From the IMG/VR virus record IMGVR_UViG_3300009603_000037, positions 1 to 30,795 of that record: a stretch of DNA of 30,795 bases; one strand, 5' to 3'. The notes under the pieces were generated by a model. It saw only the letters and a list, made by a program, of their open reading frames with translations. It searched no databases and was not told the origin of the DNA. Positions 14,907-30,587 of the stretch are shown in pieces. Made by a program: the position numbers and the translations under genes. This stretch comes from a virus. Every line of letters starts with the position of its first letter. Within the stretch, counting starts at the first letter, position 1.

Positions 14907-15978
14907 TTTTATAGCCGACGTACACGTAGGAAACCATAAGAAGTGTGGCGGGGAGCTAGTGGGGCACATCAACACTAGGTGTCGAGAAGTTATAACTTCT
15001 TTTGGCACTGCTAGTGGCGTAGCGGCTGACGGCTCCCTAATTATTCTGGGCGATTTATTTGATAGGCATAACCCGCACCCAGCGATACTGAAGGCAACTG
15101 GCGATGCGCTTTACCCCAAAACGCCCACGTTTGTTCTTGCAGGAAATCACGACATTGCATCTTCGCATGAAGGGGATTCTGCTATCTCTGTTCTCGACTG
15201 GCTTCCACACGTTCACTGCGTAACAAGCCCTACCCTACTAACACATGAAAGTTTTAACGGTACTTCTGTACTAGCTGTGCCGTTCATTCCGGGCAATATG
15301 GCAGACAACGTGCGCGGTGTTCTAGAAGATGCAGACTTTCCAGAAGGAACTATCCTAGCTGCCCATTTTGGTATTAGTGACACCAACACCCCGGAGTGGC
15401 TTGTTAATACAGAGTCGTCTGTTTCTATCCATACGGTGCGTAGCTGGTGCGATAAATATAAGCTTGGCGGCGTGTTTGTGGGGGATTGGCATGATCGTAA
15501 GCAATGGGCTGGGCCTAATAAGCAACCGATTGTACAAGTCGGAGCCCTAGTCCCTACGGGATGGGACAACCTGGGACATAATTATGGGCATGTTACTACG
15601 TACAATGCGGGCGATATTAAAAGCGTGCAAGTACCTGGCCCACGCTACTTTAATATAGACACGCCCACCGAAGCGGAAGATGTCCTGAGAAAGCTCAATG
15701 CAAAAAACTTTGCACGCTTCAAAATAAAGTCTGAACTTTTGCCAGCGGATTATATCCAGGAGCTAGAAAAAGACGCTCGTATTCTAGATATCATCCACGA
15801 TGTTTCGGTCTCTGCTTGCCGCGAATCGGCTAAGAATGCTGTAGAAGCGGTTAAAAGTGGCACTAATTCTATAGAAGAACTGGCGTCTACTTACATTGCT
15901 GGTATGGATATACCCGATGCCACAAAGGAAGCGGTTTTAGATACAACCCTTGCTTATTTGAAACGGGGAGATGCCTAG
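14899..15978 (+). CDS. sbcD: SbcD/gp47/Mre11-like nuclease subunit
   Basis: The 359-residue protein has the five metallophosphoesterase motifs in order: DVH (Asp7, His9), GDLFDR (Asp52), GNHD (82-85), His156 in AAHFG, and GDWHD (195-199). This is the Mre11/SbcD/T4 gp47 nuclease, which with its SMC-like partner cuts and resects DNA ends. Here the partner gene is the next one, overlapping by a few bases. The C-terminal part (about 215-359) is less conserved and contains the region expected to bind the SbcC coiled-coil base. The start ATG 14899 lies inside the end of the methyltransferase gene, preceded by AAGGAG. Confidence 0.92.
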   Translation: MISFIADVHVGNHKKCGGELVGHINTRCREVITSFGTASGVAADGSLIILGDLFDRHNPHPAILKATGDALYPKTPTFVLAGNHDIASSHEGDSAISVLDWLPHVHCVTSPTLLTHESFNGTSVLAVPFIPGNMADNVRGVLEDADFPEGTILAAHFGISDTNTPEWLVNTESSVSIHTVRSWCDKYKLGGVFVGDWHDRKQWAGPNKQPIVQVGALVPTGWDNLGHNYGHVTTYNAGDIKSVQVPGPRYFNIDTPTEAEDVLRKLNAKNFARFKIKSELLPADYIQELEKDARILDIIHDVSVSACRESAKNAVEAVKSGTNSIEELASTYIAGMDIPDATKEAVLDTTLAYLKRGDA

Positions 15979-15979
15979 C

Positions 15980-17605
15980 ATGAATATTCTGCACATAGAG
16001 GTCACGGGCTTTCACGGGTTGAATGGCTTCACACTAACATTCCCTAAGAAGGGTGCCGTGGTCATAACTGGGGCTAACGGCACCGGTAAAAGCACGATTA
16101 TTGAAGCTATTTGCTGGGCTGTTTGGGGCAAAACACTTCGCGGAACTATCCCAGGTGGGGACGATGAAGTCGCTTGTGAGGTGGGACTCACAACTGATGA
16201 AGTTTACATTATTAGGCGGCGGGAAAATGGGCGCACCCAAATGGGTTGGAAATACAACCATGACGGCACCTTTGAAGATCCCGCAGAGTTTCCCACCATG
16301 AGCGCTGCGCAAGAGGCTTTAGAGTCAATCGTTGGGGACTTCGGCCTTTGGGTTCGTAGCAGGGTCTTTTCATCTTCTGATGCCGTGTACTTTTCTATGG
16401 CTTCGGACAAAGAACGAAAAAGGTTGCTCGAAGAGGTGTTAGGCGTAGATCGTTTCGACAGTGCTCACATGCTGTGTCGGACTGATTTGAATACCGGTAA
16501 AGGGAATCTTGTGAAATTAGAGCAGGGCAGTGAAATTTTACAAGAGCGCATTAAAAGCCTTAAAGATCGAATTTCTGATTACGAAAAATATGAGAAGAAT
16601 CTAGGGCCTACAGACGACTTAAAAGTCCTTGAAGACAAACTGTCTAAACTTGAGGAACAATATAAACAGGCACAAAGTGAGGTTTCTGAAGTTAGCGCTG
16701 AAGTAAGAAGCTGTCGTAAAGACGTAATAACTATTGAATCAAAACTTAGCTTTGAAGCAGAGAAGGTTGAAAATATTAAAGATGCTAAGTGTCCTACATG
16801 CTTCCAAGACATACGCGCAGAATACCGGGACAACGTTCGCGCTGTGATAGATGAAACTACAGCGGCCCTAACCGCAGAGCATAAAACTAAGAGGGCTTCC
16901 CTATCTGCGTTAACTGTCAACCTAGAAGAACTGACCGGAGATTGCGATTTGCTATCCGAGGCGTCTTATCACCTAGACACCAAAATGCGTTCTGTAATCC
17001 AGAGTACAACCTTTGCCAAAGAAGCTGAGAGTAGTAAGAAGCAGCTTCTTGCTTCTAAAGCCGCCCACGAAGAAGAGGCGGTGTCGCTTGGCGATGAAAA
17101 GTCTGAACTACAGGACAAGGTTGATGTCTTAGGCCACGTTGCCACAGTTCTGAACACAAGAGGTGTCCGTGCCCAAGTGGTTACAAACGCACTAAACGGG
17201 CTCCAAGCATCGGCTAATTCGTGGCTATCGCGCTTATGTACGGACCTTAGCATAGAATTAAGCGGCGAAACTGTGCAAGCCAGCGGGAAGGTCGTGGACA
17301 CAATAAGCCTCCACATCCACGGTGGCGGGGGCGGTAATGGGTATAAAGCGCTATCCAGCGGCCAACGTAGGCGGGTGGACGTAGCGCTAATGTTGGGGTT
17401 GGGGGCTATAGCTGAAGCCGCTTCCGGCTACTCGGGAGCCATGATGTTTGATGAGGTGTTTGACGCACTAGATTCGGACGGCGTGGCTGCTATCGTCGAT
17501 GTTCTGTCTGAGATAAGCACAGACAGATTGGTATTTGTTGTTACGCATAACGATGAGCTTGCTAATGCGATACCGGCTGTTTTAAACATAACTACGCCGT
17601 TCTAA
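15980..17605 (+). CDS. sbcC: SbcC/gp46/Rad50-like ATPase
   Basis: ATG 15980 is preferred over ATG 15971 because GGGGAG lies 9 nt upstream of the former and abuts the latter. The 541-residue product has Walker A GANGTGKST (31-39), two coiled-coil arms rich in charged residues around the zinc hook CPTC (about 271-274), the signature LSSGQRRRVD, and Walker B-type MMFDEVFDALD near the C-terminus, followed by the His switch VVTHND. It pairs with the upstream nuclease to process DNA ends for recombination. It is about half the length of E. coli SbcC and similar to T4 gp46, so the coiled coil is short. It ends a run of coupled genes from the helicase onward. Confidence 0.93.
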   Translation: MNILHIEVTGFHGLNGFTLTFPKKGAVVITGANGTGKSTIIEAICWAVWGKTLRGTIPGGDDEVACEVGLTTDEVYIIRRRENGRTQMGWKYNHDGTFEDPAEFPTMSAAQEALESIVGDFGLWVRSRVFSSSDAVYFSMASDKERKRLLEEVLGVDRFDSAHMLCRTDLNTGKGNLVKLEQGSEILQERIKSLKDRISDYEKYEKNLGPTDDLKVLEDKLSKLEEQYKQAQSEVSEVSAEVRSCRKDVITIESKLSFEAEKVENIKDAKCPTCFQDIRAEYRDNVRAVIDETTAALTAEHKTKRASLSALTVNLEELTGDCDLLSEASYHLDTKMRSVIQSTTFAKEAESSKKQLLASKAAHEEEAVSLGDEKSELQDKVDVLGHVATVLNTRGVRAQVVTNALNGLQASANSWLSRLCTDLSIELSGETVQASGKVVDTISLHIHGGGGGNGYKALSSGQRRRVDVALMLGLGAIAEAASGYSGAMMFDEVFDALDSDGVAAIVDVLSEISTDRLVFVVTHNDELANAIPAVLNITTPF

Positions 17606-17613
17606 ACGTTAGG
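17602..17613 (+). promoter_or_regulatory. CTAAACGTTAGG near-palindrome at the sbcC stop
   Basis: CTAAACGTTAGG overlaps the TAA stop and differs from the promoter palindrome CCTAAACGTTTAGG by lack of one base. It lies 15 bp upstream of the lytic transglycosylase gene, so it may be a regulator site, but no clear -35 and -10 pair is present. Confidence 0.3.
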
Positions 17614-17627
17614 ACATTGGATTAAAA

Positions 17628-18230
17628 ATGAACTTGATTATAGCGCTGGCCGTCATCTTCCATATTGGAATCACAGATCTTGCGTTCGCAAAAAACCAGG
17701 ACACGCCCTCTTTAAGAGCAGAGGTACACTGTGCTCTTGCCCTGTCTACGCTATTTCATAACGTGGGGTCTAAAAGTTACAGAAATAAACTAGCTAAAAA
17801 CCTTCCGCCGCGCATGAAGACGTGCGTCACCTTGGCTAGTAAGGCCGAAGACTACGGACTCTCTATCCCAGAGGTCGTCGCCATTGGTTATTACGAAAGC
17901 AAATTCTCTATGACTGCTGTGTCATCTGCTGGGGCCATAGGGCCACTACAAATTTTGCCTAGGTACTTCTGCCCCAAACGGCGTGCACGTGGCTGCGATG
18001 TCATAGCTGCGGGTCTAAAGGCAGTAAAAAAGTTTAAAAATGCCTACGGCGACAGTTACCAGTGTCATTACAATGCTGGGCGCGTGTGTAATAAAAGGTC
18101 AAAGGGTTACGCTAGAAGAGTAAGAAGCATGAAACGCCTGCTTGAAATGTATGACAACCAGATCTTTAACAGGCTGCCTTTAAATGAAATGGAAACCGAG
18201 GGCTCGGACTCCATTCACAGAAAAAGATAA
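17628..18230 (+). CDS. Secreted lytic transglycosylase (SLT-type lysin)
   Basis: The 200-residue protein starts with a signal peptide (MNLIIALAVIFHIGITDLAFA) with a likely cut near residue 21. The SLT domain has the catalytic glutamate in YYESKF (Glu90), GAIGPLQILP (103-111), and CHYNAG (147-151), as in lysozyme-like transglycosylases that cut the glycan strands of peptidoglycan. Seven cysteines suggest disulphides in the periplasm. A signal peptide on a phage lysin means export by host Sec and possibly holin-independent lysis, or a role in entry if structural. It lies 22 bp after sbcC and is the last long plus-strand gene before the minus-strand block. Confidence 0.85.
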   Translation: MNLIIALAVIFHIGITDLAFAKNQDTPSLRAEVHCALALSTLFHNVGSKSYRNKLAKNLPPRMKTCVTLASKAEDYGLSIPEVVAIGYYESKFSMTAVSSAGAIGPLQILPRYFCPKRRARGCDVIAAGLKAVKKFKNAYGDSYQCHYNAGRVCNKRSKGYARRVRSMKRLLEMYDNQIFNRLPLNEMETEGSDSIHRKR

Positions 18231-18395: not shown

Positions 18396-19280
18396 TTATT
18401 TCGCTTCTTCTTTTGTGAGGAAACACTTAACATATTCCGGTGTGAAATTTTCATTGTTGGGCGCGCTTGCGCCTCTTTCCCAACTGTTTTTGCCTTCTTC
18501 TTTCTTTTTCCCATATGCCTCTCGCTCTAAAGCTAACCAAATCTGTTGTAGGGCTTCAAATGTTGGGGACCAGCACAAGTTTTCTAGGCTAATAGCGGCC
18601 ATGATTATAATTCCAATGACCTCGCCCTTTGAATTGAATACCGGGGCACCGCTGCTGCCACCTCTTGTGGGTATTGTGTAAATAGTTAGTTCATCAAAAG
18701 AGCCTGTCCATGGGGAAGGTTTTGCGACCTTATAAGCGCTGCCAGAGTAGAAGCCCTCGAATTTCGGTAACATCTCGGACGAGTACAACCCAAGCGGGGC
18801 CGCAAGTGCATAAACACGCTCCCCATATTTTGGTGCCTCGGTTGCAAATTTAACAGGGGTTATGTGCACACCGTCGATCCTCAACACACACGCGTCAATT
18901 CCCGTGTATACCGCAAGCACCTTTGCAGGGTATTTCCCCCCGCCTGGGGTTGCCGCTGTCATACTAGATTCAGTAGACATCCTAAAGCCGCCTGTGTACT
19001 TAGGGACCGGACGCTTACAAAGGTGCCCAGCCGTCATAATTAGCGATCCGGTTTTATCTGTTGCTATGGAAAACCCTGACCCAACAAATTTAACCCTACT
19101 TGCCGGTATACATTGGTCTTTGTGGCAAAGGTTTTCTGAATATGTGTGCGTCAAGAAAACGAATGAGGCCCTGGGCAGTTTAGGCTGTGTAACTGCTGTA
19201 GACCCACCGGTTGTGCCCGCACAAGAAAGCGCTATCACTACTAAGAACGCCAAAAATAATCTTACTATTTGACCACCCAC
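18396..19280 (-). CDS. Exported trypsin-like serine protease
   Basis: The GTG start at 19280 has GAGAGG 5 nt upstream on the minus strand and overlaps the previous gene by 16 nt. The 294-residue protein has an N-terminal hydrophobic segment ending ALSCAG, which could be a signal peptide or an atypical lipobox. The chymotrypsin-fold triad is visible: His86 in TAGH, Asp129 in GIDACVL, and Ser210 in GGSSGAPV. The family comprises trypsin and HtrA-type peptidases; no PDZ domain follows, only a charged C-terminus (YGKKKEEGKNSWERG). It probably acts outside the inner membrane. Its target is unknown; the neighbouring VWA lipoprotein is a possible substrate or partner. Confidence 0.88.
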   Translation of the reverse strand: MGGQIVRLFLAFLVVIALSCAGTTGGSTAVTQPKLPRASFVFLTHTYSENLCHKDQCIPASRVKFVGSGFSIATDKTGSLIMTAGHLCKRPVPKYTGGFRMSTESSMTAATPGGGKYPAKVLAVYTGIDACVLRIDGVHITPVKFATEAPKYGERVYALAAPLGLYSSEMLPKFEGFYSGSAYKVAKPSPWTGSFDELTIYTIPTRGGSSGAPVFNSKGEVIGIIIMAAISLENLCWSPTFEALQQIWLALEREAYGKKKEEGKNSWERGASAPNNENFTPEYVKCFLTKEEAK

Positions 19281-19564
19281 AATCGCCTCTCTTCGTCATC
19301 AATAGAAACCAAGTCGTCGTTAATCTTTGCGCTTGAATGCCACCGTATTTCCCGGATTTTCCCCTCGTACACATCGTCAAGTCGAACACGAAGGTTCGGT
19401 ATGATTTCTAAGATGGTTCCGGTAGTGCCTTGGGCAACGACTATTTGGATAGTCTTATCTTTAGTTGGGCAAGTGACCTCAATAGGCCTTTTAACCTCTA
19501 CCCTTGTCCCCCTGCCAAGTGCCCTATTCACGCCTCTTCTAAAGCTCCACTGCCCGTCTGCCAT
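19265..19564 (-). CDS. Small beta-rich protein, SH3/KOW-like pattern
   Basis: The 99-residue protein overlaps both neighbours and so belongs to the same minus-strand operon. Its middle has short strands in the manner of an SH3 or KOW barrel: GTRVEVKRPIEV, QIVVAQGTTGTILEI, NLRVRLDDV, then a tail ending DDEERRLWVVK. No signal peptide is apparent, so it may stay in the cytoplasm, unlike its neighbours. The fold call is from pattern only; function is not recognised. Confidence 0.65.
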   Translation of the reverse strand: MADGQWSFRRGVNRALGRGTRVEVKRPIEVTCPTKDKTIQIVVAQGTTGTILEIIPNLRVRLDDVYEGKIREIRWHSSAKINDDLVSIDDEERRLWVVK

Positions 19565-19689
19565 TTTCGGTCACCAATATCTTCGGCCGTTGGCGCAAAT
19601 ACCGCCGCTGTTGCAAAACACACCAGCACAAATATCAGCGAACCGGCCAACTGCCTGACTGTTGATTTAGCCCATTTTCGCACGCACAT
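19528..19689 (-). CDS. Small protein with one hydrophobic segment
   Basis: ATG 19689 is chosen because AGGGGCGGGGT precedes it; the frame is open further upstream, but there it overlaps the better-supported gene at 19667-19828. The 53-residue product has a basic start (MCVRKWAKSTVRQ), one hydrophobic stretch (LAGSLIFVLVCFATAAVFA), and a short acidic tail. It can be a signal-anchored membrane protein or a tiny secreted peptide. It overlaps the genes on both sides. In a lysis or surface module it could be a spanin- or antiholin-like partner of the neighbouring two-segment membrane protein, which is inference from context. Confidence 0.55.
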   Translation of the reverse strand: MCVRKWAKSTVRQLAGSLIFVLVCFATAAVFAPTAEDIGDRKWQTGSGALEEA

Positions 19690-19828
19690 ACCCCGCCCCT
19701 GCTGCACAAAATATCCCGCTAATAAGCGCAACAAAAACCCCTGTTGACTCGCCGTTTGCAAGGCTGAAAAGCAAAAGCCCACAATTTAGGCCAATGCCTG
19801 TAAGTAAAATGTCCCGAAGTAGGCTCAT
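19667..19828 (-). CDS. Holin-like two-segment membrane protein, 53 residues
   Basis: The ATG at 19828 overlaps the stop of the VWA gene (ATGA) and has a near-perfect ribosome site, GGAGGTG, 4-5 nt upstream on the minus strand. The product has two hydrophobic segments, ILLTGIGLNCGLLLFSLA and GVFVALISGIFCAAGAGYV, joined by a short polar turn (NGEST), and a basic end (RAKMG). That size and layout fit small class II holins but also many small membrane proteins. It overlaps the next small gene by 23 nt. A lysin gene lies nearby on the other strand (17628), though not in the same operon. Confidence 0.65.
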   Translation of the reverse strand: MSLLRDILLTGIGLNCGLLLFSLANGESTGVFVALISGIFCAAGAGYVRAKMG

Positions 19829-21882
19829 GGGGCACCTCCGCAGGCGGTTTCATCCAAAATGTCCATCAATGCACCAAACATTTTTGTTGGGTCTGTGCTC
19901 AGTTCGTTCCAAGAGCCGCCAACAGAAACCGATTCCCAGCCGACTTTGTTGCCCAGCCAGTCGGTTACGTCTTTTGTGAACCCGGTACTAAAAGTATAAA
20001 CAGATAGGTCGTCCGCATGGCTTAGAACGTCTACTAGGTTCTGCTGGGACAACATAGGCTTGAGATAGCTCTGACCCATTTCGTCCGAGAACACGATAAT
20101 CACGTGGTGAGCGTTTTCCCGCCAATTAATCTTGAAACCTTGGATGCTAGGAACTGACGGGTTGGCTCCCGGCCCCCACGCAAGATCTGATATTTGGTGC
20201 GGTAGCGTTTGAGGATCTACAAGGTTGTGCGCTGCTAAATAGAGGGCGTCATATAACATCTCATTGGCCCCGCCAAGATACGACGTAGCCATTGCGGAAA
20301 GCGCGGGTACAAAGGTAGAGAACTCAGTAAGATTTTGGTTGAGATATAGCTTCTCAGACAACCCAGAACCAACTGCCGTAGGTCCGGTAACCAGCCCCCA
20401 ATGAATTGCGGTGGAGCCGGAGTAGCTTGCCGCAAATGTGGTCATTGCTTGCGCCACTGCCCCAATTTCTTCGTACATGGACCCTGAAGCGTCAATGATG
20501 AAAAGGATGTCTGTATCCTCTAGCTCTTTTTCAACCTGACCATTGCAATCATTGTCTGCCCCGCCGCAGAGATCTTCGGACATGGGCGTTACTTCACCAA
20601 CGCAGAGGCCTTCCACAAATGTCTCTGGGGTATTAGAAGTTTTAACTTTACCGCCCCACTTGCCCGCGAGACACGTCATCTCGCCGGGGATGCACTCGCC
20701 AACGCCCTCTGTTGCTGGAGGCCCGGTGTAACATCCCTTGACAAGATCTTCGTCTATCAAGGTGTCGCAATCGTCGTCGTGGTTATTGCAGACCTCTGGG
20801 TATGGAACTCCAAGAGTGTCGTCACACGTCTGGCCGGGTATCGGGAAGAAATGGCAGGGGGCGTGGCACTCCGTCATCGCGGTCTCTGCACAACCCACGT
20901 CCACACATGCGCATTGTTTGTAGCCTTGGCCGCATACGAGCGGCGGCTCAAGGCAGGGGAATATTGCCCCAACATCTTCCGGGGGGCAGCCGCAGCTAAT
21001 CCCGTCGTCTATATAACCATTGCAGTCGTCATCCAACCCATTACACACCTCGTCTTGAGGCTCTTGCGCGGAGCACAGGGTCCACATACCGGAAACACAC
21101 GTTTTATAGCCATCGCCACAGGCCGTACTACAGCCATCTAGCAAATCCTCATCAATCAGCCCATCGCAGTCATTGTCAAAACTATCGCAATCTTCGCTCG
21201 GAACATCGCCGCATAGATTACAAATGTTTGTTTGACCCTCATCAGTAAGACCGTCGCAGTCGTCATCAACGTAGTTGCAGACCTCTTCCGTGGGCTCGGG
21301 CGCGGAACACAGCGTTACCTTGCCATTTATGCAGGCACCCTCACCATCGCCGCAATCAGTGGAGCATGGGTACAAACCCTCATCTGTTGTCCCATCGCAA
21401 TCGTTGTCTATGCTGTCACAAATCTCATCTGTACAAGGGTCACATGGGCTGTATGAAAAGAAGCCTTTGTCACAGTATTTAGTTTGAACTCCTAAAAGCC
21501 CATCAACCTCGCACACAATTTCACCGAGATTGGTCGGCCCCGTAGGGTCGCATTCAAAGATTTCTTCGCAGTCACCCATAGTTACGATAGACCACTGACA
21601 CTCGGAGGCTGTGCACGGGTCGCCGTTTTCGTCGCATATATCTACTGTAACCACTTTGCGCCACACAGCAGATAGGGGCGGGCAGTACCAATATTGGTCT
21701 TGGTAACAACGCTTTTCGTATTCGTAGGTATCCCCGGTATGGGGGTCGTAAGTATCGGCGTCTACAAAGCTAAGGGTATCCACCGCGTCCAGTTCATTGG
21801 GCGAAAACCCATCGCCGCTGCTCTTGCTACAACTGCTTGCCAGTACTAAAACTAAGGTTGTTGTGACTAACCTGGCTCGCAA
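19825..21882 (-). CDS. MopE-repeat and VWA-domain lipoprotein
   Basis: TTG 21882 is preferred (GGAG 5 nt upstream, and then MRARLVTTTLVLVLASSC gives a clean lipoprotein signal peptide); GTG 21900 is an alternative with no ribosome site. The product of about 685 residues is cysteine-rich. It contains six MopE-like repeats with the pattern CDxxDNDCDGxxDE, for example CDSFDNDCDGLIDEDL and CNGLDDDCNGYIDDGI, which probably bind calcium or copper. The C-terminal third is a von Willebrand A domain: DILFIIDASGSM holds the DxSxS metal site, with later IVFSDEMG. Such proteins are typical of the cell surface of Myxococcota-type bacteria. On a phage it suggests surface modification of the host or a horizontally gained adhesin. 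Confidence 0.9.
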   Translation of the reverse strand: MRARLVTTTLVLVLASSCSKSSGDGFSPNELDAVDTLSFVDADTYDPHTGDTYEYEKRCYQDQYWYCPPLSAVWRKVVTVDICDENGDPCTASECQWSIVTMGDCEEIFECDPTGPTNLGEIVCEVDGLLGVQTKYCDKGFFSYSPCDPCTDEICDSIDNDCDGTTDEGLYPCSTDCGDGEGACINGKVTLCSAPEPTEEVCNYVDDDCDGLTDEGQTNICNLCGDVPSEDCDSFDNDCDGLIDEDLLDGCSTACGDGYKTCVSGMWTLCSAQEPQDEVCNGLDDDCNGYIDDGISCGCPPEDVGAIFPCLEPPLVCGQGYKQCACVDVGCAETAMTECHAPCHFFPIPGQTCDDTLGVPYPEVCNNHDDDCDTLIDEDLVKGCYTGPPATEGVGECIPGEMTCLAGKWGGKVKTSNTPETFVEGLCVGEVTPMSEDLCGGADNDCNGQVEKELEDTDILFIIDASGSMYEEIGAVAQAMTTFAASYSGSTAIHWGLVTGPTAVGSGLSEKLYLNQNLTEFSTFVPALSAMATSYLGGANEMLYDALYLAAHNLVDPQTLPHQISDLAWGPGANPSVPSIQGFKINWRENAHHVIIVFSDEMGQSYLKPMLSQQNLVDVLSHADDLSVYTFSTGFTKDVTDWLGNKVGWESVSVGGSWNELSTDPTKMFGALMDILDETACGGAP

Positions 21883-21942
21883 AGTATCTCCGAGTGCCAC
21901 ACACTTGCGCGACTGCCCAACCCGGAGCTAACACAACTACAG

Positions 21943-22323
21943 CTAGTGGTCGTCTGGGAAAAGCAATGCCCTGTGGTCGGGGTTCTTCGAGTTTATAATT
22001 AGAAGGGCTTCGTCCATAATCGCCTGCATGTTTTTAGGGGTGCCTTCTTTACACCAGACCCTGATTACACCGGGGTCTTCGCCAACCAACATAGCGGTTA
22101 TAGTGATGCCTATTTTACGGACGGCTCTTAACGTTGGGTTTTTTGCTGTAGATTTCCAACTAGCGCCTAAAAATTCGTACTTCTTTAGTGTGCCGTGGCG
22201 ACGATGTTTATCGTAGCAACGTGTACAAAGGCCGCGACTGGCATAACTCGCCTCCACCGGAGTCGAGGTGCAATTAAGACAAGAGTCTAAACCTTGTGGC
22301 CATTTATGTAAGCGCAAAACCAT
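21943..22323 (-). CDS. Small zinc-finger protein
   Basis: The 126-residue protein has CLNC near residue 15 and CTRCYDKHRRHGT near 33-45. This CxxC/CxxCYxxxRRxG arrangement is seen in phage zinc-binding and HNH-associated DNA-binding proteins. No HNH catalytic residues are evident in the rest, which looks like a small alpha/beta domain (KIGITITAMLVG, VIRVWCKEG, AIMDEALLII). It may bind DNA, perhaps to regulate the minus-strand block it heads. The start ATG 22323 has no strong ribosome site. A GGTGTTTTATACACC inverted repeat lies just upstream. Confidence 0.7.
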   Translation of the reverse strand: MVLRLHKWPQGLDSCLNCTSTPVEASYASRGLCTRCYDKHRRHGTLKKYEFLGASWKSTAKNPTLRAVRKIGITITAMLVGEDPGVIRVWCKEGTPKNMQAIMDEALLIINSKNPDHRALLFPDDH

Positions 22324-22604: not shown

Positions 22605-24095
22605 ATGCGTCAGACTGCGGTTGATCGGCATGTTGTAAAGGCGATGCCCCTATGGGGTCATGGAAACTTCCCCACACTGCACATATTTACCGATGGAACG
22701 AGGGACCATATGAAAGCTGACTTTTATAATTACTATGAAGCCATATTAGCGGCTCGCGGGAATCCAGAAGGCGATGAAGCTTTCGGAACTGTCCCACATG
22801 ATGGGACCTCACTGGGCGACATTGTATCCATATTAGCCGTCCGCCCGGGCTTTGGAAAACCGGGTTTTGAGGGCTTGGTGTATGTAAACGGCGTACACGA
22901 CTCAAAAGAAAAGGGCCGCTTTCTAATACAAATAACGGTTTCAGAAGCTACGTGCACAAATTTCAGAATTTGGTACGAGAAAGATTTTGGAAGAGATCCT
23001 GCAACAGGCGAACTACTTGAACCAACGAACGACCCCGAAGTCCTACCTGTACAGCAAATCCTTTTAACGTCCCTGCTTATGTACAGGCACTATCGCCAAG
23101 AATGCTTTGTTATAGATAGCTTTATGGAAAAGGCGCTTTCAGAAACGCCCATATCAAACGTCCCAGAAAAATACTTTAGACTGCCATACAGGGCTTTTTA
23201 TGTGGCACTTCCAGACACACAAAGTATCGCGGCCGACGAGCATCTTTTATATGGGCACGGAGATACGGGAAGAAATTCAGCAATCGGAGCGCTACCGACT
23301 ACCGACCCAGAAAAGCGCTTAGGCACTGGTATTTTCCAGCCCGAAGATACTGGATATCATAAGCTTGGTGGGTTTTTTGTCACAGAACACGGCGACTTCC
23401 TGTCCTTACTCATTGTTGGTAGGCCGAACGAAAAGTCCGTTAATGAATCTGACGTTCCTACAACACAGCTAACCCTGTGCCTTAAACATATAAAATGGGG
23501 AACCCCTAATGCTATTACTGACTATGTTGAATGGGTTTTGAGTAGTCACGATAATCAGGCGAACGACGCTGGTATCCCTTACGCGCCTACATCCTCGTAC
23601 CAGTATGCTCGTATGAAAGCCTCCTTACACCACTGCGTTAAGCTCCTGGTAAACTTGATTCTTTATGCTAATAGCACTAACCCAGATTTCACGCGGTCTA
23701 ACGCCACAAACAGCAAGCATGTACGAAGCCTCAAAAAGAAGCTCAGAAAGTCTAAACTCTCTCGGGCCAAACGCTTAGGGCCTAAAATTTTAAAGGCCAC
23801 GAAGTGCTCTATTATTATGGTCGGAAACTCATACGAAGCACGCGCCACCCGCAATACTATGACAACCGGTAAAGCGGTTAGTGGTCATTTTAGAAAAGCG
23901 CACTGGCACACATACCATGTAGGCCCCCGCCTATACGAAGACGGTACAAAGATTCCGCTGCATTTGCAGGACTCTAAATTACTATGGGTCGATATGACCG
24001 AAATTAATCCCGATAGCGACGACCAAATAGAAAAGCGTACCTATGTCGTATCGGCCGCTGCTGATATGTTGGATGACGCGGAAAGTATGGAGTAG
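22605..24095 (+). CDS. AcrVA2-like mobile-element protein
   Basis: The 496-residue protein ends in a pattern I recall from AcrVA2 and its many relatives in mobile elements: a basic stretch, then GHFRKAHWHTYHVGPR, a short insert, and KLLWVDM, where AcrVA2 has RRGHWHGYW followed by RVRW and VFVN. A middle region also agrees: helices LTSLLMYRHYRQE then FRLPYRAFYVALPD, compared with SRLYLYGAWRNT and LNLPDWCVYVD. AcrVA2 blocks Cas12a production by acting on its mRNA or nascent chain. Relatives are widespread and mostly untested, so the protein here may target something else. It is longer than AcrVA2 (about 320), with extra sequence at the N-terminus. GGAGG lies 4 nt before the start, and P5 precedes it. 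Confidence 0.5.
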   Translation: MRQTAVDRHVVKAMPLWGHGNFPTLHIFTDGTRDHMKADFYNYYEAILAARGNPEGDEAFGTVPHDGTSLGDIVSILAVRPGFGKPGFEGLVYVNGVHDSKEKGRFLIQITVSEATCTNFRIWYEKDFGRDPATGELLEPTNDPEVLPVQQILLTSLLMYRHYRQECFVIDSFMEKALSETPISNVPEKYFRLPYRAFYVALPDTQSIAADEHLLYGHGDTGRNSAIGALPTTDPEKRLGTGIFQPEDTGYHKLGGFFVTEHGDFLSLLIVGRPNEKSVNESDVPTTQLTLCLKHIKWGTPNAITDYVEWVLSSHDNQANDAGIPYAPTSSYQYARMKASLHHCVKLLVNLILYANSTNPDFTRSNATNSKHVRSLKKKLRKSKLSRAKRLGPKILKATKCSIIMVGNSYEARATRNTMTTGKAVSGHFRKAHWHTYHVGPRLYEDGTKIPLHLQDSKLLWVDMTEINPDSDDQIEKRTYVVSAAADMLDDAESME

Positions 24096-24100
24096 CAAAA

Positions 24101-24484
24101 ATGTGTAGTACAAGGTACAACTTTCAGATGGACCCAGGCTTTAAAGATGATTGGCTCGCTTTTATGTCCAAAATAGTGGTGCGCCTTGATAAGGGCGAGG
24201 CTGAATATGAGGGGCGCTCCTTCTCTAAAAGTCCAGACGTACTACTAGATGAAATTGAAGAAGAACTTTTAGACGTTGCCGGTTGGTCGTTCATTATGTG
24301 GAAACGCATTAAAGAAATACGGGCTGCGCTAGAGCATCTGCCAAAAGACGCCGAAGCCTCGCCTACTATTACAGACCGCGTAGTCAACGCACTAGAAACT
24401 GTGGCAACTGCTGTTAAAGACAAAATAAGCCCTTTCGACTACACGATCCCATATCAACCAAAGGATGACGCTGGTGATGAATAG
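24101..24484 (+). CDS. Small helical protein, MazG-like pattern
   Basis: ATG 24101 follows GGAG by 8 nt and lies 5 bp after the AcrVA2-like gene. The 127-residue product shows FSKSPDVLLDEIEEELLDVAGWSFIMWKRI (about residues 41-70, read in parts), with Glu, Glu and Asp spaced as in the metal-binding helices of MazG-type nucleotide pyrophosphohydrolases, though only one such helix is clear. The C-terminal part is helical, then proline-rich and acidic. I would call it a conserved-looking phage protein with possible MazG relation. Confidence 0.6.
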   Translation: MCSTRYNFQMDPGFKDDWLAFMSKIVVRLDKGEAEYEGRSFSKSPDVLLDEIEEELLDVAGWSFIMWKRIKEIRAALEHLPKDAEASPTITDRVVNALETVATAVKDKISPFDYTIPYQPKDDAGDE

Positions 24485-24698
24485 TATCTTAGTCATAGTC
24501 GCTGCGGCTTTTATCATTGTGTGCTGCGCTGCGCCGCCAGAGGCCGCTAACCAGCGAGAATGGCGGGACAACTTTATAGACTCTAGTTGTGAACGCTGCC
24601 CTCAATGCTGTGTCTTCGTCCCTGTTAATGAGAACAATCTATACGGCCCCTGGAAAGAAGTCTTTGAACCACCGTGCAAAGAGGATGGCAAATGCTAA
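24477..24698 (+). CDS. Small secreted or lipoprotein-like cysteine-rich protein
   Basis: The ATG at 24477 overlaps the previous stop and gives MNSILVIVAAAFIIVCCAAPPEAA, a hydrophobic leader with a Cys-Cys-Ala end that may be a lipobox. Another in-frame ATG at 24465 is less likely, since the AAGG site would abut it. The 73-residue product has a mature part with a cysteine cluster (CERCPQCC) and two more cysteines near the end. It may sit in the outer membrane or periplasm. It overlaps the start of the next gene by 7 bases, which has a single membrane segment. Such a pair resembles outer and inner spanins, but the order and overlap are not the classical ones. Confidence 0.6.
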   Translation: MNSILVIVAAAFIIVCCAAPPEAANQREWRDNFIDSSCERCPQCCVFVPVNENNLYGPWKEVFEPPCKEDGKC

Positions 24699-25036
24699 AG
24701 AAGGAAACTATAGCGGTGCTTATAGCGCTTATAACTGGTATAGCTGGCGTCACTACGGCATTTATAAACCGAATGAGCCCCGCCGAGCCCGTCGCAGAAG
24801 CTACCTATGAAGTCACTAAGCAGAATTTTGATACCCTGGTTGACGACTTAGACGCTATGGAAACACACCTAGATGATATTGAGCGCAAAATACTTAGGCA
24901 GTGCCTACGTCGAATTAAAACATCAAAGGTCACTGCACCTACTAGCGGTGATGATGACCCACTAAAGATTAAGCGCCCACGACGACTGCGTAAAAAAATG
25001 CCGCCGTTTGACCGCGCACAGCAACAACGCCCATGA
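24692..25036 (+). CDS. Single-span membrane protein with coiled coil, possible inner spanin
   Basis: ATG 24692 follows AGAGG by about 8 nt. The 114-residue product begins MLKKETIAVLIALITGIAGV, a membrane anchor expected with the N-terminus inside. A coiled-coil-like acidic helix follows (NFDTLVDDLDAMETHLDDIE), then a very basic, proline-containing end (LKIKRPRRLRKKMPPFDR). An anchor, a coiled coil and a basic tail are also the features of inner-membrane spanins. It overlaps the methyltransferase gene by 4 bases (ATGA). Other small phage membrane proteins share this look, so the spanin role is only a possibility. Confidence 0.6.
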   Translation: MLKKETIAVLIALITGIAGVTTAFINRMSPAEPVAEATYEVTKQNFDTLVDDLDAMETHLDDIERKILRQCLRRIKTSKVTAPTSGDDDPLKIKRPRRLRKKMPPFDRAQQQRP

Positions 25037-25530
25037 CATCGCCCTGGAACGCCGAACAACTTTACTCATCCAATAGCAATGAATGGTACACGCCTTCATA
25101 TATATTTGATCCGTTAGACGATGAGTTTGAATTTGAGCTAGATGCCTGTGCTACAGAAGACTCTGCAAAGTGTGACGCGTACTTTACTAAGAAGGATAAT
25201 GCACTTCTTAAAGACTGGTCAGCCGCTGCAAACATTGTGTGGGTAAACCCCCCATACGGGCGCGGCATTGGTAAGTGGATTGAAAAGGCCTACAAGGAAT
25301 CCCTTAAAGGTTGTACCGTAATAGTTCTAACTTATGTAAGGTCGGATACGAAATGGTGGCACGATTGGGCACTAAAGGCCTCAGAAATAAGAATGATTAA
25401 AGGTAGAATCCATTTCATGCGCGGAGATTTGAAAACAACCAACGCCTCACCAGCGCCTTCTTGCGTACTGGTGTTTAGCGAAGACAAAAGACGGCCCGTA
25501 ATTAAAGCGTGGTCACCGGAAAAGGAGTAA
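25033..25530 (+). CDS. dam: Phage Dam-type DNA N6-adenine methyltransferase
   Basis: The 165-residue protein has the compact layout of the phage Dam family: SNEWYTP near the start (residues 16-22), FELDACATEDSAKC (motif I region, about 34-47), and the catalytic NPPYGRGIGKWIEKA (about 73-87), then VIVLTYVRSDTKWWHDW. It transfers methyl from SAM to adenine; the recognition site in this family is often GATC but is not proven here. Together with the beta-class enzyme at 13995 the phage has two methyltransferases and no visible restriction enzyme, which fits evasion of host restriction. Coupled to the upstream gene by ATGA. Confidence 0.88.
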   Translation: MTSPWNAEQLYSSNSNEWYTPSYIFDPLDDEFEFELDACATEDSAKCDAYFTKKDNALLKDWSAAANIVWVNPPYGRGIGKWIEKAYKESLKGCTVIVLTYVRSDTKWWHDWALKASEIRMIKGRIHFMRGDLKTTNASPAPSCVLVFSEDKRRPVIKAWSPEKE

Positions 25531-25534
25531 TGTT

Positions 25535-25960
25535 ATGGCCGCTAAAAGCGATTTAGTAGATGTTAATGGAAATCCAGTGGGACAGGCTGCTCACGAACAA
25601 CCTAGTTACTTAGAGCAGGCACTACTAGAGGATGCTGTGCCCGCTTCTCCTGGCGAAAGCGCCGCTTCTAGTGACGCGCCGCCAACACTAGACGTAAATT
25701 CTGCGGAGTCTTTCCTATTGTTTCGAGAAAATGGTGAGTATGTCCTGCATCTTGGGCCGGATAACCACGCTGACCTTAACCTGGGTGGATTTCTTGTATC
25801 CTTCTGTGTCTGGGCTATGAACAGACGTGAATGGGTGGAAGAGTTTCAGGGGTTCCTAAAAAAGCTGTCCGAAGATCCCCAAGTTATGGACATTGCCGTC
25901 GCAAAAGCCTCCAATGAAGCTGAAGCCGAAGCCGAAGCGTCGGACGATGCGAAGTCCTAA
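25535..25960 (+). CDS. Unrecognised acidic protein
   Basis: AGGAG 9 nt before ATG 25535 and tight spacing support this 141-residue gene. The first 50 residues look disordered and Ala/Ser/Pro rich. The core (about 52-120) has strands FLLFRENGEYVLHLGPD and a helix with aromatic residues (FLVSFCVWAMNRREWVEEFQGFLKKL). The end is a run of Glu-Ala repeats (EAEAEAEASDDAKS). No family is recognised. The acidic, repetitive end may be disordered or bind a partner. Confidence 0.65.
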   Translation: MAAKSDLVDVNGNPVGQAAHEQPSYLEQALLEDAVPASPGESAASSDAPPTLDVNSAESFLLFRENGEYVLHLGPDNHADLNLGGFLVSFCVWAMNRREWVEEFQGFLKKLSEDPQVMDIAVAKASNEAEAEAEASDDAKS

Positions 25961-25976
25961 CTTTTCTGGGGGTTGG

Positions 25977-26192
25977 ATGGAAAAACCTTGTCAACAAGAG
26001 CCGTTGTCAAACCCGCTTATTTCTATTGATGATGCAATCAGCGCGATGTTTAGTCCCCTTGGCATGCAAATGCTACTAGAGAAATATGGTGACGACACGC
26101 CAGCAATAGAAATTCAAGACGCATATACCCGGGCGGAAACCTGGCTTTGCGGCGGTTTCGCCATAGCTCCGACATCCGAATGGGTGCAATAA
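25977..26192 (+). CDS. Unrecognised small protein
   Basis: ATG 25977 follows GGGGG by 4 nt; earlier in-frame ATGs would lie inside the preceding gene. The 71-residue product is helical (SIDDAISAMFSPLGMQMLLE, IEIQDAYTRAETWLC) with no membrane segment or motif that I can name. Its stop overlaps the next start as TAATG, which suggests translational coupling. Confidence 0.55.
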   Translation: MEKPCQQEPLSNPLISIDDAISAMFSPLGMQMLLEKYGDDTPAIEIQDAYTRAETWLCGGFAIAPTSEWVQ

Positions 26193-26464
26193 TGATCGCT
26201 ATATTAATGCTTATTATCGCAGCAAAAATGTATGCCCGGGGCATGAACATCCAGGACGAAGATGCACGGCATATAGTACTAACGAGAGCGGAATCTATAG
26301 ATGTTCTAGGTAATAAGTTACTAAAGACGGCTGGGTACCTAACTGGGATTGTGTGGTGCCTTTACGCCATTTCATTAGTCGTTTCCGCCCTTGGATACCC
26401 CGAAGTTACTGCGGCGTTAAAAACGTGGTTTATCATAACCGCCGCTGCCATCATTGTGGCCTAA
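26192..26464 (+). CDS. Small multi-span membrane protein
   Basis: The ATG at 26192 is part of a TAATG overlap with the previous stop and has GGGTG 6 nt upstream; ATG 26180 in frame is an alternative. The 90-residue product has three hydrophobic segments: MIAILMLIIAAKMYA, LTGIVWCLYAISLVVSALG, and WFIITAAAIIVA, with a charged loop between the first and second (QDEDARHIVLTRAESIDV). Three-span proteins of this size include class I holins, but no decisive feature is present. A holin role is only one possibility. Confidence 0.6.
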   Translation: MIAILMLIIAAKMYARGMNIQDEDARHIVLTRAESIDVLGNKLLKTAGYLTGIVWCLYAISLVVSALGYPEVTAALKTWFIITAAAIIVA

Positions 26465-26522
26465 GTACTCCAAAAAATTACCGTATCGTTAGATGATAGC
26501 GCCAACTGCGCTAGGAGCGTCT

Positions 26523-27860
26523 ATGCCGTCATCTAAAGATGTAGAGTTACTAGACAAGATAACACCCCTAATACAGACGGGTGTTCCGATAACACAAATC
26601 GCTAAGAAGCTTGGTACGAATAGAACCCGTATTTATAGGGTTCTTAAACGTAACAAAGTCGATCTTGGGGATATAAAACCGGCCGCCGTTCCAGATAGTA
26701 TTGCAATAGAGCGCGACGGCGAAAGCCTTGTACTAAATGCTAAAGGCAGAGTTAAAACTCTCTATGGCCTTCTAAAAGAAGCTCAAATAGACACTAACGA
26801 ATGGCGGGTGTCTAAATGGACGGCAAACAAATGGGACGCCATGACTAAGGGCGGCGATACCGTCGCCATGTGGCAAGTCAAAGCCTACTTAGAGCGTATC
26901 CCAGACTTTGCCCGGTTTGTCCTAGAGCCAGTCAAAAACATCAGCCGACGCCCCGGCAGGGGAAATGCTCAAGGGCTGCTACGTGCGCTTATAATCCCAG
27001 ATTCACAGAACGGGTACCGCATAGAAAGGAAAACAAACGAGCACAAGCCCCTGCATGACCGCCTCGCTTGGGACATAGCCATACAAGCCGCGCAAACGCT
27101 TCAGCCAGAAATCATAGTTTTATTGGGGGACATGCTGGATTTAGCCCCCTTTGGTACTTACCTAACAGAACCCAACCTTGCCTTTACCACTATGCCGACA
27201 CTTCTAGAACTGCATTGGTGGTGCGCGCAACTTCGGTTGGCCGCCCCAACAGCTAAAATATATTACCTAGAGGGCAACCACGAAAAGCGCTTACAGAAAC
27301 AGCTAATTGGGCAACTATCAGAAGCTGTAGATCTAAGGCCCGTGAATGACCCAGGTGGACCGGCTGCGCTCTCTGTTAAAAGGTTATTAGCTCTAGATAG
27401 TTTAGACATTGAGTACTTAGAGGGGTACCCGGCGGCGGAGCTTTGGCTTTGGGACAAGGTTAGGGTTTACCATGGCGATAGGGTTAGGTCTGGGAGTGGT
27501 GCTACTACAGCCAGCCTTATAAAGGAAGCCAACTCATCTGTCGTGTTCGGCCATATTCACCGACTTGAGCTTTGCTCAAAAACCATCACAAAGGCCGATG
27601 GGCAAGAAACATTGTTCGCAATGTCTCCTGGATGCCTCTGTAGACTAGATGGGGTTATTCCTGGGTCCACGCACCGCAGCAATTGGCAGCAAGGGCTTGG
27701 CATAATTAATCTACTACCGGCAACTGCCTCAAGAAAACCCACCGCTTTGTGCGAAGTGATACCAATTAAAGATGGGCGCTGTGTAATTGGTGGGGCAGTT
27801 TATCGTGGTGATAGCCGTATTGCAGAGATACGAAAAGGCACCGGATACGAGTGGTTTTAA
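26523..27860 (+). CDS. HTH domain fused to a metallophosphoesterase
   Basis: ATG 26523 is chosen for AGGAG 5 nt upstream over ATG 26493. The 445-residue protein begins with a resolvase-like helix-turn-helix (PITQIAKKLGTNRTRIYRVL, about 22-41). A middle unit (about 91-130) has WRVSKWTANKWDAM and WQVKAYLER. A calcineurin-like phosphoesterase follows: IPDSQ (Asp160), LLGDMLD (202-206), GNHEKR (251-256), VYHGDR and GHIH. The first motif lacks the usual His (DSQ for DxH). It may be a DNA-bound nuclease or phosphatase; phages carry many such enzymes of unproven role. It lies outside the recombination operon, so it is not the Mre11 copy. TAATG overlaps the following small gene. Confidence 0.85.
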   Translation: MPSSKDVELLDKITPLIQTGVPITQIAKKLGTNRTRIYRVLKRNKVDLGDIKPAAVPDSIAIERDGESLVLNAKGRVKTLYGLLKEAQIDTNEWRVSKWTANKWDAMTKGGDTVAMWQVKAYLERIPDFARFVLEPVKNISRRPGRGNAQGLLRALIIPDSQNGYRIERKTNEHKPLHDRLAWDIAIQAAQTLQPEIIVLLGDMLDLAPFGTYLTEPNLAFTTMPTLLELHWWCAQLRLAAPTAKIYYLEGNHEKRLQKQLIGQLSEAVDLRPVNDPGGPAALSVKRLLALDSLDIEYLEGYPAAELWLWDKVRVYHGDRVRSGSGATTASLIKEANSSVVFGHIHRLELCSKTITKADGQETLFAMSPGCLCRLDGVIPGSTHRSNWQQGLGIINLLPATASRKPTALCEVIPIKDGRCVIGGAVYRGDSRIAEIRKGTGYEWF

Positions 27861-28213: not shown

Positions 28214-28392
28214 TGCCTGCCCCAAAAAAACCATTAAAAGAGTCCGACCTTACTGACAGAAAGGTTAGGGATTTACTTAGGAAAGCTTCGCGCCTAGAAC
28301 TGAATATTTACGATGATCGGACACACATTATAAAGCTTTTGTGTAGGGCTTTATTACGGGCGCGGGGTAAAGACCCCTATAGACAGGGCTAG
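28213..28392 (+). CDS. Possible small basic protein, 59 residues
   Basis: ATG 28213 opens a 59-codon frame ending at TAG 28390-28392. The product is basic and helix-prone (DLTDRKVRDLLRKASRLELN, then IIKLLCRALLRARGKD), with two regions that could form amphipathic helices. No Shine-Dalgarno is seen. Its stop overlaps on the opposite strand the stop of the tail fibre-like gene. The coding character is fair but there is no known relative. Confidence 0.4.
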   Translation: MPAPKKPLKESDLTDRKVRDLLRKASRLELNIYDDRTHIIKLLCRALLRARGKDPYRQG

Positions 28393-30227
28393 TCAGTAAT
28401 CGTTGCTTGCGCACCGCTCTGAGTCGCTTGTACGAGCCATGACTCGTTGGCCCCGCCTGCTACCGCCGTAAACTTAGCGGAAGATCCGCCCTCGACATCT
28501 TCGGGCCATATGAATTTATCGCCGTCAATATCGCTAATGGTTACGGGTGCGCCTGAACTTCGATCAATTAAGGTCAATTGTCCCATAAGATCGTCATTGC
28601 CGTCAGCACCAGCACACTCAATCGAAACGTATTTGCCGGTTTGAACGGTATCGCCTTCCGCGAGAACAAACTCAAAGAAAACACCCTCAAGGCCTGCCGT
28701 AATAGCGGGTAGTGTAATCGCAATCCAGTTTGACCCCGGAGCGCAAACCACCATTGAACCTGAATCCGCTGCTGTTAGCGTTACTGACGCGTTGCCGCCT
28801 CCCGCATCAATTGTCAAAACGCGTCTACGGAATCCAAGCCCCCCGGCTGTTGCCGATGAATTTGCAGGCGGGCCGGTCACATCATGTACACGCCCACATT
28901 CAACGCTGTTGCTTTTGAAGATAATGTCTTCTGCGGATTGAATCTGAAGCGAACCAGCTACGTTGTTAATCGTTCCGTCGCCCGCACCCGCGCCCGAATC
29001 TCCGGTATGTGCAATGCGGAAATAAGAGTTCCCAGCATTATCACCAATCCCAAAAGCTGTATCCAACACTTTACCGGACGCATGCGTTACGTTGTACCCA
29101 GTGAATTGAGGTGGCGATCCGTTACTGTCTAGACCATCAATTCCAACATCAAACCCGATATAGTTAGAGCCTGCGTTGTCTGAGCCATCGCACGTCATTG
29201 CCGCCTGAAAACCAAACATGACCGCGCCAGCACCGGCCGCGTGTGCTCCAGACGAGTTATCCATAGTAGCTTTGAAACCCGAACACGCGGTTGTCGCGTG
29301 CCCCCGTCGAATCTGGGCATCAAAGCAAGCACCAATTTGCTCTTTCGGGTTTGCCCCGCTGCCAATCCGAATACCACCAGCACCTGAGTCGTCTTCGTCA
29401 GCGCCTGTAAAATTGAACTGTAGAGCGTGGGTGCCATCCGTGCTCCAACTGAGACCCACATCGCCGTTGTTCTGCCCACTTGTCGTTGCGGAACCGAACA
29501 GAATACTTTGTTGGTCGCCCAACTCGATGTTACCGGCAAACGTGGCTGTCGGGCCGGTTTGGCCTGCACTAACAGCAGCAGCGCTTTGCGCGGTTAGGGT
29601 CAAAGCCGTTGTGAGCCCGTTGACACTTGTTCCAGTACTTGTGGCCGCATTAGCAACATAAAAAATCAAATTCCCACTAACGCCAGTACCTGTACCCGCA
29701 CCCGCCGCAATGGATAGTGTTTTACCGGCCGTGTCTGTGCCCGAAACACCCACAACTTTCATAATTTGGTTTTGTGCGGCACCAAACTCAAGGACGGTAC
29801 CACTAGGACAAGGAATGGACAGTTTAGCGCCCGGGGTGCTGGTGCCAATTCCGACGTTACCGGAACTATCAATGACAAGCCGCTTGTTATCGCCCGTGTC
29901 GTCGCGAATAATAAAATTGTCTTCGCCTTCGACGCCTACGGTCCACTCGACGTTAGCCGCGTCCGAGCCTTCGAGCTTAATAAAAGCGTTACTGCCTTTA
30001 AGATGGAGCGCTTGAACAGGGCTAGTAGTCCCTACCCCGATTTTACCCGTACCAGTGGAGTCCAGCTTAATAGTAGACGTACTTGCTTGGTCCGCAGTGA
30101 CCGAATGAGGGTTATTTGTCGCATTAGCATGGGCAGAAATGTCAACACCGTCAATGGTGCGGCCAACACCGAGTTCGCCAGTGCCGATAATTCGAGAAAT
30201 TAATTGGCCGTCTTTAAAAGTACTCAT
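28389..30227 (-). CDS. Tail fibre-like structural protein
   Basis: The 612-residue protein has a composition rich in Gly, Ala, Ser, Thr and Asn. Phage fibre features include NNPHSVTADQ (about 38-47, a motif seen in tail fibre and tail-associated proteins), GKIGVGTTSP and SSGNVGIGTSTP (about 61-70 and 120-131), which recur in fibres that hold a trimeric shaft. No carbohydrate-cleaving motif is seen. The C-terminal region (about 480-612) is more globular (SVTLTAADSGSMVVCAPGSN) and may be the tip. It would bind the host surface. It is downstream of the 119-residue gene on the minus strand and is the last gene of the late region here. Confidence 0.75.
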   Translation of the reverse strand: MSTFKDGQLISRIIGTGELGVGRTIDGVDISAHANATNNPHSVTADQASTSTIKLDSTGTGKIGVGTTSPVQALHLKGSNAFIKLEGSDAANVEWTVGVEGEDNFIIRDDTGDNKRLVIDSSGNVGIGTSTPGAKLSIPCPSGTVLEFGAAQNQIMKVVGVSGTDTAGKTLSIAAGAGTGTGVSGNLIFYVANAATSTGTSVNGLTTALTLTAQSAAAVSAGQTGPTATFAGNIELGDQQSILFGSATTSGQNNGDVGLSWSTDGTHALQFNFTGADEDDSGAGGIRIGSGANPKEQIGACFDAQIRRGHATTACSGFKATMDNSSGAHAAGAGAVMFGFQAAMTCDGSDNAGSNYIGFDVGIDGLDSNGSPPQFTGYNVTHASGKVLDTAFGIGDNAGNSYFRIAHTGDSGAGAGDGTINNVAGSLQIQSAEDIIFKSNSVECGRVHDVTGPPANSSATAGGLGFRRRVLTIDAGGGNASVTLTAADSGSMVVCAPGSNWIAITLPAITAGLEGVFFEFVLAEGDTVQTGKYVSIECAGADGNDDLMGQLTLIDRSSGAPVTISDIDGDKFIWPEDVEGGSSAKFTAVAGGANESWLVQATQSGAQATITD

Positions 30228-30587
30228 CTAGCGTCTCCTACGGCTGGTAATAACAAGCCTGACATCCCCAGACGTGTGATTAGAATGCGGGGCTACCGTA
30301 ACTACAATGGTTTTTGCGAACAAAGCGTCAAAAAGTACCGTGTCTTCTGTGCCCATATTTATAGCTTGTTCTGTAAGAACAGTGCTTGTGCCATGATCGG
30401 GGCGAGTTTCGACTTTCCAAAGGCCAGCTTCATCAGCACCCGGGCCGTCGATGCCTGCTACTTGAACTTGGTGTTCAGAAAAAGACCCGGTAGGGTCGTA
30501 ACCTAAATTTTGAGCGGTAATAGTCCAAACGTTCGATGAGGACTGGTGCCCTACAGCGTATGTGTTTTGTTTAAAGCGTTCTAGCAT
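30228..30587 (-). CDS. Small structural-like protein, unknown
   Basis: Minus-strand ATG 30587 follows GAGGGGAATT by a good distance. The 119-residue product has mostly strand-like sequence (NVWTITAQNLGYDPTG, HQVQVAGIDG, LWKVETRPDHG, TIVVTVAPH), which fits a small tail or baseplate protein. Its stop is immediately next to the tail fibre start (TAGCGT region 30228-30230). No family is recognised. Confidence 0.65.
   Translation of the reverse strand: MLERFKQNTYAVGHQSSSNVWTITAQNLGYDPTGSFSEHQVQVAGIDGPGADEAGLWKVETRPDHGTSTVLTEQAINMGTEDTVLFDALFAKTIVVTVAPHSNHTSGDVRLVITSRRRR

Follow-up and report, generated by a model that had tools for sequence, protein, structure and literature searches.

What does a phage gain from a block of lipoprotein genes that runs against its neighbours and sets an integrin-like surface domain beside a protease? 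The window analysed here is the whole of IMG/VR record IMGVR_UViG_3300009603_000037 (30,795 bases), whose phage replication genes encode an exonuclease, helicases, a primase, a family A DNA polymerase, SSB, UvsX, a methyltransferase and SbcCD-like proteins. Between plus-strand neighbours at 15971-18230 and 22605-27860 lies a minus-strand block that a first-pass annotation, made from the letters alone, placed at 18396-22323. Its opposite orientation, the 685-residue lipoprotein with six MopE-like repeats and a VWA domain, and the adjoining trypsin-like protease are all borne out by translation and Pfam. The concern that the block is a chromosomal locus joined to phage DNA by misassembly can be set aside, since a 78,443-base record (IMGVR_UViG_3300025251_000012) matches the window at 99.97% identity across 21 kb, and the more distant 42-kb record G001 has the same block gene order with a VWA protein that is 70% identical. 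The 78-kb record contributes a portal gene, an amidase/peptidoglycan-binding protein beside small hydrophobic genes and, named by appearance only, capsid-like and tail-sheath-like genes. The structural region of that record continues in the window at 28389-30587 (minus strand), with a tail-fibre-like gene of 612 aa and its partner of 119 aa. A promoter and terminator scan gave no signal above chance. The features of the block and its borders are as follows.

17628..18230, plus strand: SLT transglycosylase, a convergent neighbour and possible partner (Pfam SLT, 1.3e-6)
18396..19280, minus strand: trypsin/HtrA-like protease lipoprotein of 294 aa, without PDZ (Trypsin_2, E 3.9e-20)
19265..19564, minus strand: 99-aa SH3/KOW-like ORF between the lipoprotein genes (47% identical in G001)
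19528..19689, minus strand: possible 53-aa ORF, one-TM-like (weak; G001 has a hydrophobic ORF at the same place, without a BLAST match)
19667..19828, minus strand: 53-aa hydrophobic ORF, two-TM-like (77% identical at the matching place in G001)
19825..21882, minus strand: MopE/VWA lipoprotein of 685 aa (Pfam MopE and VWA above cut-offs)
19828..20526, minus strand: its C-terminal VWA domain with a beta-integrin-type MIDAS (invariant in 80 of 80 homologues; Foldseek; VIA-align)
20533..21435, minus strand: its Cys-rich stalk, which carries the six metal-binding motifs of MopE type, DxDCDG (translation; PF11617 in all 46 members scanned)
21436..21735, minus strand: its Cys-rich N-terminal domain (model pLDDT 89.8)
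21829..21882, minus strand: its type II signal peptide, with the lipobox cysteine (C18 in the 685-aa frame) at its end
21943..22323, minus strand: 126-aa ORF outside the conserved block, seen in no phage but this one

The MopE/VWA gene starts at a TTG codon preceded 5 nt upstream by GGAG, with an in-frame GTG at 21900 as an alternative (691 aa). Its stop overlaps the start of the 53-aa ORF at 19667-19828 (ATGA), which in turn overlaps the ORF at 19528-19689. Identity to G001 is 70% for the VWA protein and 77% for the 53-aa ORF, and 47% and 37% for the 99-aa ORF and the protease. Related arrangements occur at two further loci with the order VWA, small ORF, protease (L020 and L027, whose short ORF is equated with the 99-aa ORF by position) and at one with the order protease, 103-aa ORF, VWA (L030). 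The 99-aa ORF has no signal, no TM segment and no Pfam match, and looks like a small cytoplasmic SH3/KOW-like protein. The description of the products as exported holds, as a prediction from their lipoboxes, for the two lipoproteins and not for this ORF. The proposed extent also needs adjustment: the 126-aa ORF is not kept together with the other genes and is no part of the block, whereas the SLT transglycosylase gene just outside may belong to it. Elsewhere in the window, a 77-aa Cys-rich lipoprotein-like ORF (24465-24698, SSCERCPQCC) resembles by eye an ORF at 9198-9497 of L027 that lies just upstream of that locus's VWA gene.

The domain assignments for the large lipoprotein are above threshold. 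Specifically, the match to Cu-binding_MopE (PF11617) has an E value of 1.2e-13 and 51.4 bits against a cut-off of 27, and the VWA match (E 1.6e-5) likewise exceeds the Pfam cut-off. Six motifs of the form C..xDxDC(D/N)xxxD are seen in the translation, the sixth at the junction of stalk and VWA domain; these motifs also seem similar to calcium loops. The MIDAS residues are D464, S466 and S468, E541 with D545, and D600 (685-aa frame), and the DxSxS, E and D positions never vary among the 80 homologues read. In beta3 integrin, E220 and D224 define an E..(+4)D-A pattern after DxSxS, and this E-x3-D-A pattern of beta integrins fits 74 of the 80 homologues. The 46 members scanned yield Pfam matches of the MopE and VWA types only. 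The lipobox cysteine, with a hydrophobic stretch before it, is kept in all 75 homologues that cover the N-terminus, which predicts export of the protein and a lipid anchor in the envelope of the infected cell.

In an AlphaFold2 model of the protein (pLDDT 84.7) the cysteine is followed by a disordered linker, then by the Cys-rich N-terminal domain and the stalk, and residues 453-685 form the VWA domain. The top Foldseek hits are integrin beta chains (E 6e-7), with TRAP, an adhesin of malaria parasites, ranking shortly after them. For the N-terminal domain Foldseek finds nothing in the PDB at E<=0.001, a result that does not by itself make it a new fold. VIA-align gives a Z score of about 16 for integrin beta, but the VWA domain of TFIIH ties with it, so the fold alone is no proof of adhesion; the structural matches cover residues 453-685 only. 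What the phage protein has in common with the integrin beta-I domain and TRAP is the VWA fold, the MIDAS and the E..(+4)D-A pattern; unlike integrins, whose full beta subunit comprises PSI, hybrid, I-like, EGF and TM parts, it carries a MopE stalk and, in place of the TM segment, a predicted bacterial lipid anchor, and it appears to have neither an alpha subunit nor a hybrid domain.

The second lipoprotein of the block is also conserved where it matters for catalysis. All aligned members of the trypsin lipoprotein family (A3) retain the lipobox, two cysteines and a His/Asp/Ser triad, which lies within the Trypsin_2 domain as in other S1/PA clan enzymes, and the best PDB relative is HTRA1. HtrA/DegP-type proteases share this domain and triad, but the phage enzyme differs from them in its lipid anchor, in having no PDZ domain by Pfam, and in scoring far below the NCBIfam DegP/HtrA cut-offs (23 bits for TIGR02037 against 416). 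A trypsin lipoprotein gene is present in 34 of the 40 viral records that bear the VWA gene. The two are adjacent in the window, G001, L020, L027 and L030; in other records the trypsin gene is often 6-10 kb away on the opposite strand, and sometimes farther. When the test is reversed, 5 of 24 newly tested trypsin contigs hold a VWA gene, many of the contigs ending before the VWA site. The co-occurrence partly reflects common descent, but the phages do not share one replicative polymerase: the window encodes a family A enzyme, the L082 clade DNA polymerase III alpha.

Where the trypsin gene is missing, other enzymes can stand near the VWA gene. Several records of the L08x clade yielded no trypsin gene, and two of the six trypsin-less records carry another candidate enzyme, an SLT transglycosylase (L090) or an HExxH lipoprotein (L048). 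The SLT gene sits directly upstream, overlapping or touching the VWA start, in L054, L087, L089, L090 and L093, and this adjacency occurs in several phages of a clade that often has no trypsin gene. The constant element is therefore the integrin-like lipoprotein, and the variable one may be an exported hydrolase. In another phage clade, putative HExxH metalloprotease lipoproteins are encoded directly downstream of VWA genes at L060:5767-6306, L065:6732-7271 and L086:2861-3400.

The family is large. A profile scan of viral contigs finds at least 215 stretches that encode relatives of the VWA protein, of which the best 80 loci, on contigs of up to 267 kb, were read; identity to the window protein is 40-51% in an alignment of 46, with G001 (70%) as the exception. 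Dozens of diverse phages, all known from metagenomes only, encode the VWA/trypsin pair. The 50,697 sequenced phages of INPHARED give no match to the window VWA protein, the L090 homologue or the trypsin homologue, and the openly available journal papers searched contained nothing relevant on phage VWA/MopE lipoproteins. The block is as unusual for phages and as little described as the first-pass annotation supposed. Its suggestion of a recent gain is contradicted by at least 215 stretches and a deep tree, which mark the family as old and diverse within phages. A known defence system was also considered and rejected: PADLOC models give no match to the VWA protein and only weak partial matches of the trypsin domain to the protease, none of them specific and full-length.

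Searches of bacterial genomes mostly match the MopE stalk alone. Among the genomes searched, the VWA part is well matched only in a Ca. Uhrbacteria MAG, where two tandem copies (L098) lie in a bacterial context, and in one contig of another MAG; that contig itself looks viral, as relatives of many of its genes occur in the phages with the VWA gene. The Uhrbacteria lipoproteins share the length, lipobox, stalk and C-terminal VWA domain of the phage protein (hhalign E 2.7e-50), and a Trypsin_2 protein is encoded about 4 kb away; they differ in their chromosomal context. The full architecture of a MopE stalk followed by a VWA domain is therefore mostly that of a phage family, with one bacterial chromosome region found. 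The deltaproteobacterial style first attributed to the block holds for the MopE repeats by themselves. The gene order recurs in phages (G001, with related orders in L020, L027 and L030), and the bacterial genomes searched offer mostly partial matches, Ca. Uhrbacteria excepted.

Two aspects of the phage loci bear on when the protein is made. In many pairs within the group of L064, L066 and L080-L094, VWA proteins are 46-70% identical while the median for neighbouring proteins is 82-93%. Among L082, L083, L064 and L091, the within-pair comparison L082/L083 set apart, and between L080 and L085, the corresponding values are 46-65% and 87-93%. The N-terminal domain, stalk and VWA domain all vary in such fast-diverging pairs, whereas in the close pairs L057/L067 and L051/L052 the VWA protein evolves like its neighbours. 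Divergence faster than the flanks is what an arms race would impose on a surface protein, but it could also come from gene swapping. The L082 clade has the order RecA, exonuclease, DnaB, RNR, ThyX, VWA, two unknowns, DNA polymerase III alpha and dUTPase, and in L063 the VWA gene adjoins adenylosuccinate synthetase. Judged by this gene order, the VWA gene is probably expressed with replication genes rather than with virion or lysis genes; taken with the fast divergence, this makes early or middle expression probable, and a protein of the virion or of lysis improbable.

A role at the host surface, in exclusion or adhesion, is the best reading of these sequences. We propose that the block encodes an infected-cell surface adhesin and a protease that remodel the host surface, most likely by removing or masking phage receptors, and we put this somewhat short of an even chance. 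After export, the large lipoprotein would receive its lipid and sit in the (outer) membrane, assuming a Gram-negative host envelope. Its MopE stalk, stabilised by disulfides and metal, would project the VWA head, which is integrin-beta-like; the metal ion of the MIDAS in this head would bind a protein ligand at an acidic residue. The trypsin/HtrA-like lipoprotein in the same membrane could then cut proteins held by the head or nearby, the most likely targets being host surface proteins that serve as phage receptors, and competing or sibling phages would no longer adsorb to the infected cell. Receptor removal or masking during infection would explain at once why there is a head with a protease, why expression is probably early and why the protein changes fast. 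The superinfection-exclusion lipoproteins T5 Llp and Cor are small receptor blockers, far smaller than the VWA lipoprotein. Like the two lipoproteins of the block they are phage-encoded exported lipoproteins, but they have no adhesin head or protease.

The main rival, which we regard as unlikely, is that the VWA lipoprotein imitates host adhesins such as CglB and CglD of Myxococcus xanthus, changing attachment, gliding or cell-cell contact so as to hold cells or help spread, with the protease releasing or maturing the adhesin. CglB is an outer-membrane VWA lipoprotein and surface adhesin of gliding, and CglD is a predicted outer-membrane VWA lipoprotein also involved in gliding (PMC12288465; PMC4488436; PMC11752065); a title cited by PMC11752065 terms CglD integrin-like. 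Such mimicry would account for the integrin-like head with its beta-integrin-type MIDAS and for the resemblance to these outer-membrane lipoproteins, a likeness drawn from published description, though the phage block differs in being viral and in its linked protease. Moreover, the stalk-first, VWA-last order is unlike that of most bacterial MopE and VWA proteins read, in which DxSGS lies near the N-terminus. The idea also leans on the host. MopE relatives are mostly from Myxococcota, and among 379 sampled genomes of one phylum, chosen with Myxococcales as the centre, the VWA part has a single match, a binned contig with many phage-type genes. MopE style and this one contig point weakly to a Myxococcota-like host.

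Roles in lysis or in the virion fit less well than receptor removal or adhesin mimicry. It is improbable that the SLT transglycosylase, protease and VWA lipoprotein jointly open the peptidoglycan and outer membrane at lysis: proteases and lipoproteins do share one block, and several phages have an SLT gene adjoining their VWA gene, as the window has one by its block. However, lysis-like genes are found elsewhere in the phage: near the terminase-like end of the 78-kb record, an amidase/peptidoglycan-binding gene stands with small hydrophobic genes that are holin/spanin-like by appearance. In addition, one clade keeps its VWA gene within a replication cluster. A virion or tail-associated adsorption protein would suit the tail-fibre-like speed of divergence and the adhesin-type domain, yet the lipobox in every covered homologue, the place of the L082-clade gene among replication genes and the separate opposite-strand block in the window make this very improbable. 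We give equally little credence to a metal-binding or nutrient moron gained from the host and outside phage-host conflict, which agrees with the copper-binding name of the Pfam family and the seemingly calcium-loop-like motifs but leaves the invariant MIDAS and linked protease unexplained.

Receptor removal or masking might also be one face of something broader. It is possible, though we would not call it likely, that an integrin-like adhesin and a dedicated surface hydrolase form an undescribed phage system, common among uncultured marine phages whose hosts are Myxococcota-like, that controls the contact of the infected cell with cells, particles or phages by hijacking adhesion or destroying receptors; the records are presumably marine, judging by their IMG sample numbers. 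If so, integrin-like metal-dependent adhesion chemistry with a linked protease would belong to a large, widespread family that spans phages with different replicative polymerases and is absent from the isolated phages searched. It would offer a directly testable handle on how large uncultured phages alter the cell surface during infection, and perhaps on the identity of their hosts.

Several other loci have features of their own. At L048:12045-14351, a second MopE-motif lipoprotein directly follows the first VWA gene, a tandem as in L098. Six contigs (L191, L192, L193, L005, L059 and L078) end within the VWA gene, as if assembly had broken there on strain variation or repeats. Finally, L007:7811-11599 (G002) encodes a 1262-aa Strawberry-notch/SNF2-type helicase with a portal gene on one side and capsid-like genes on the other.
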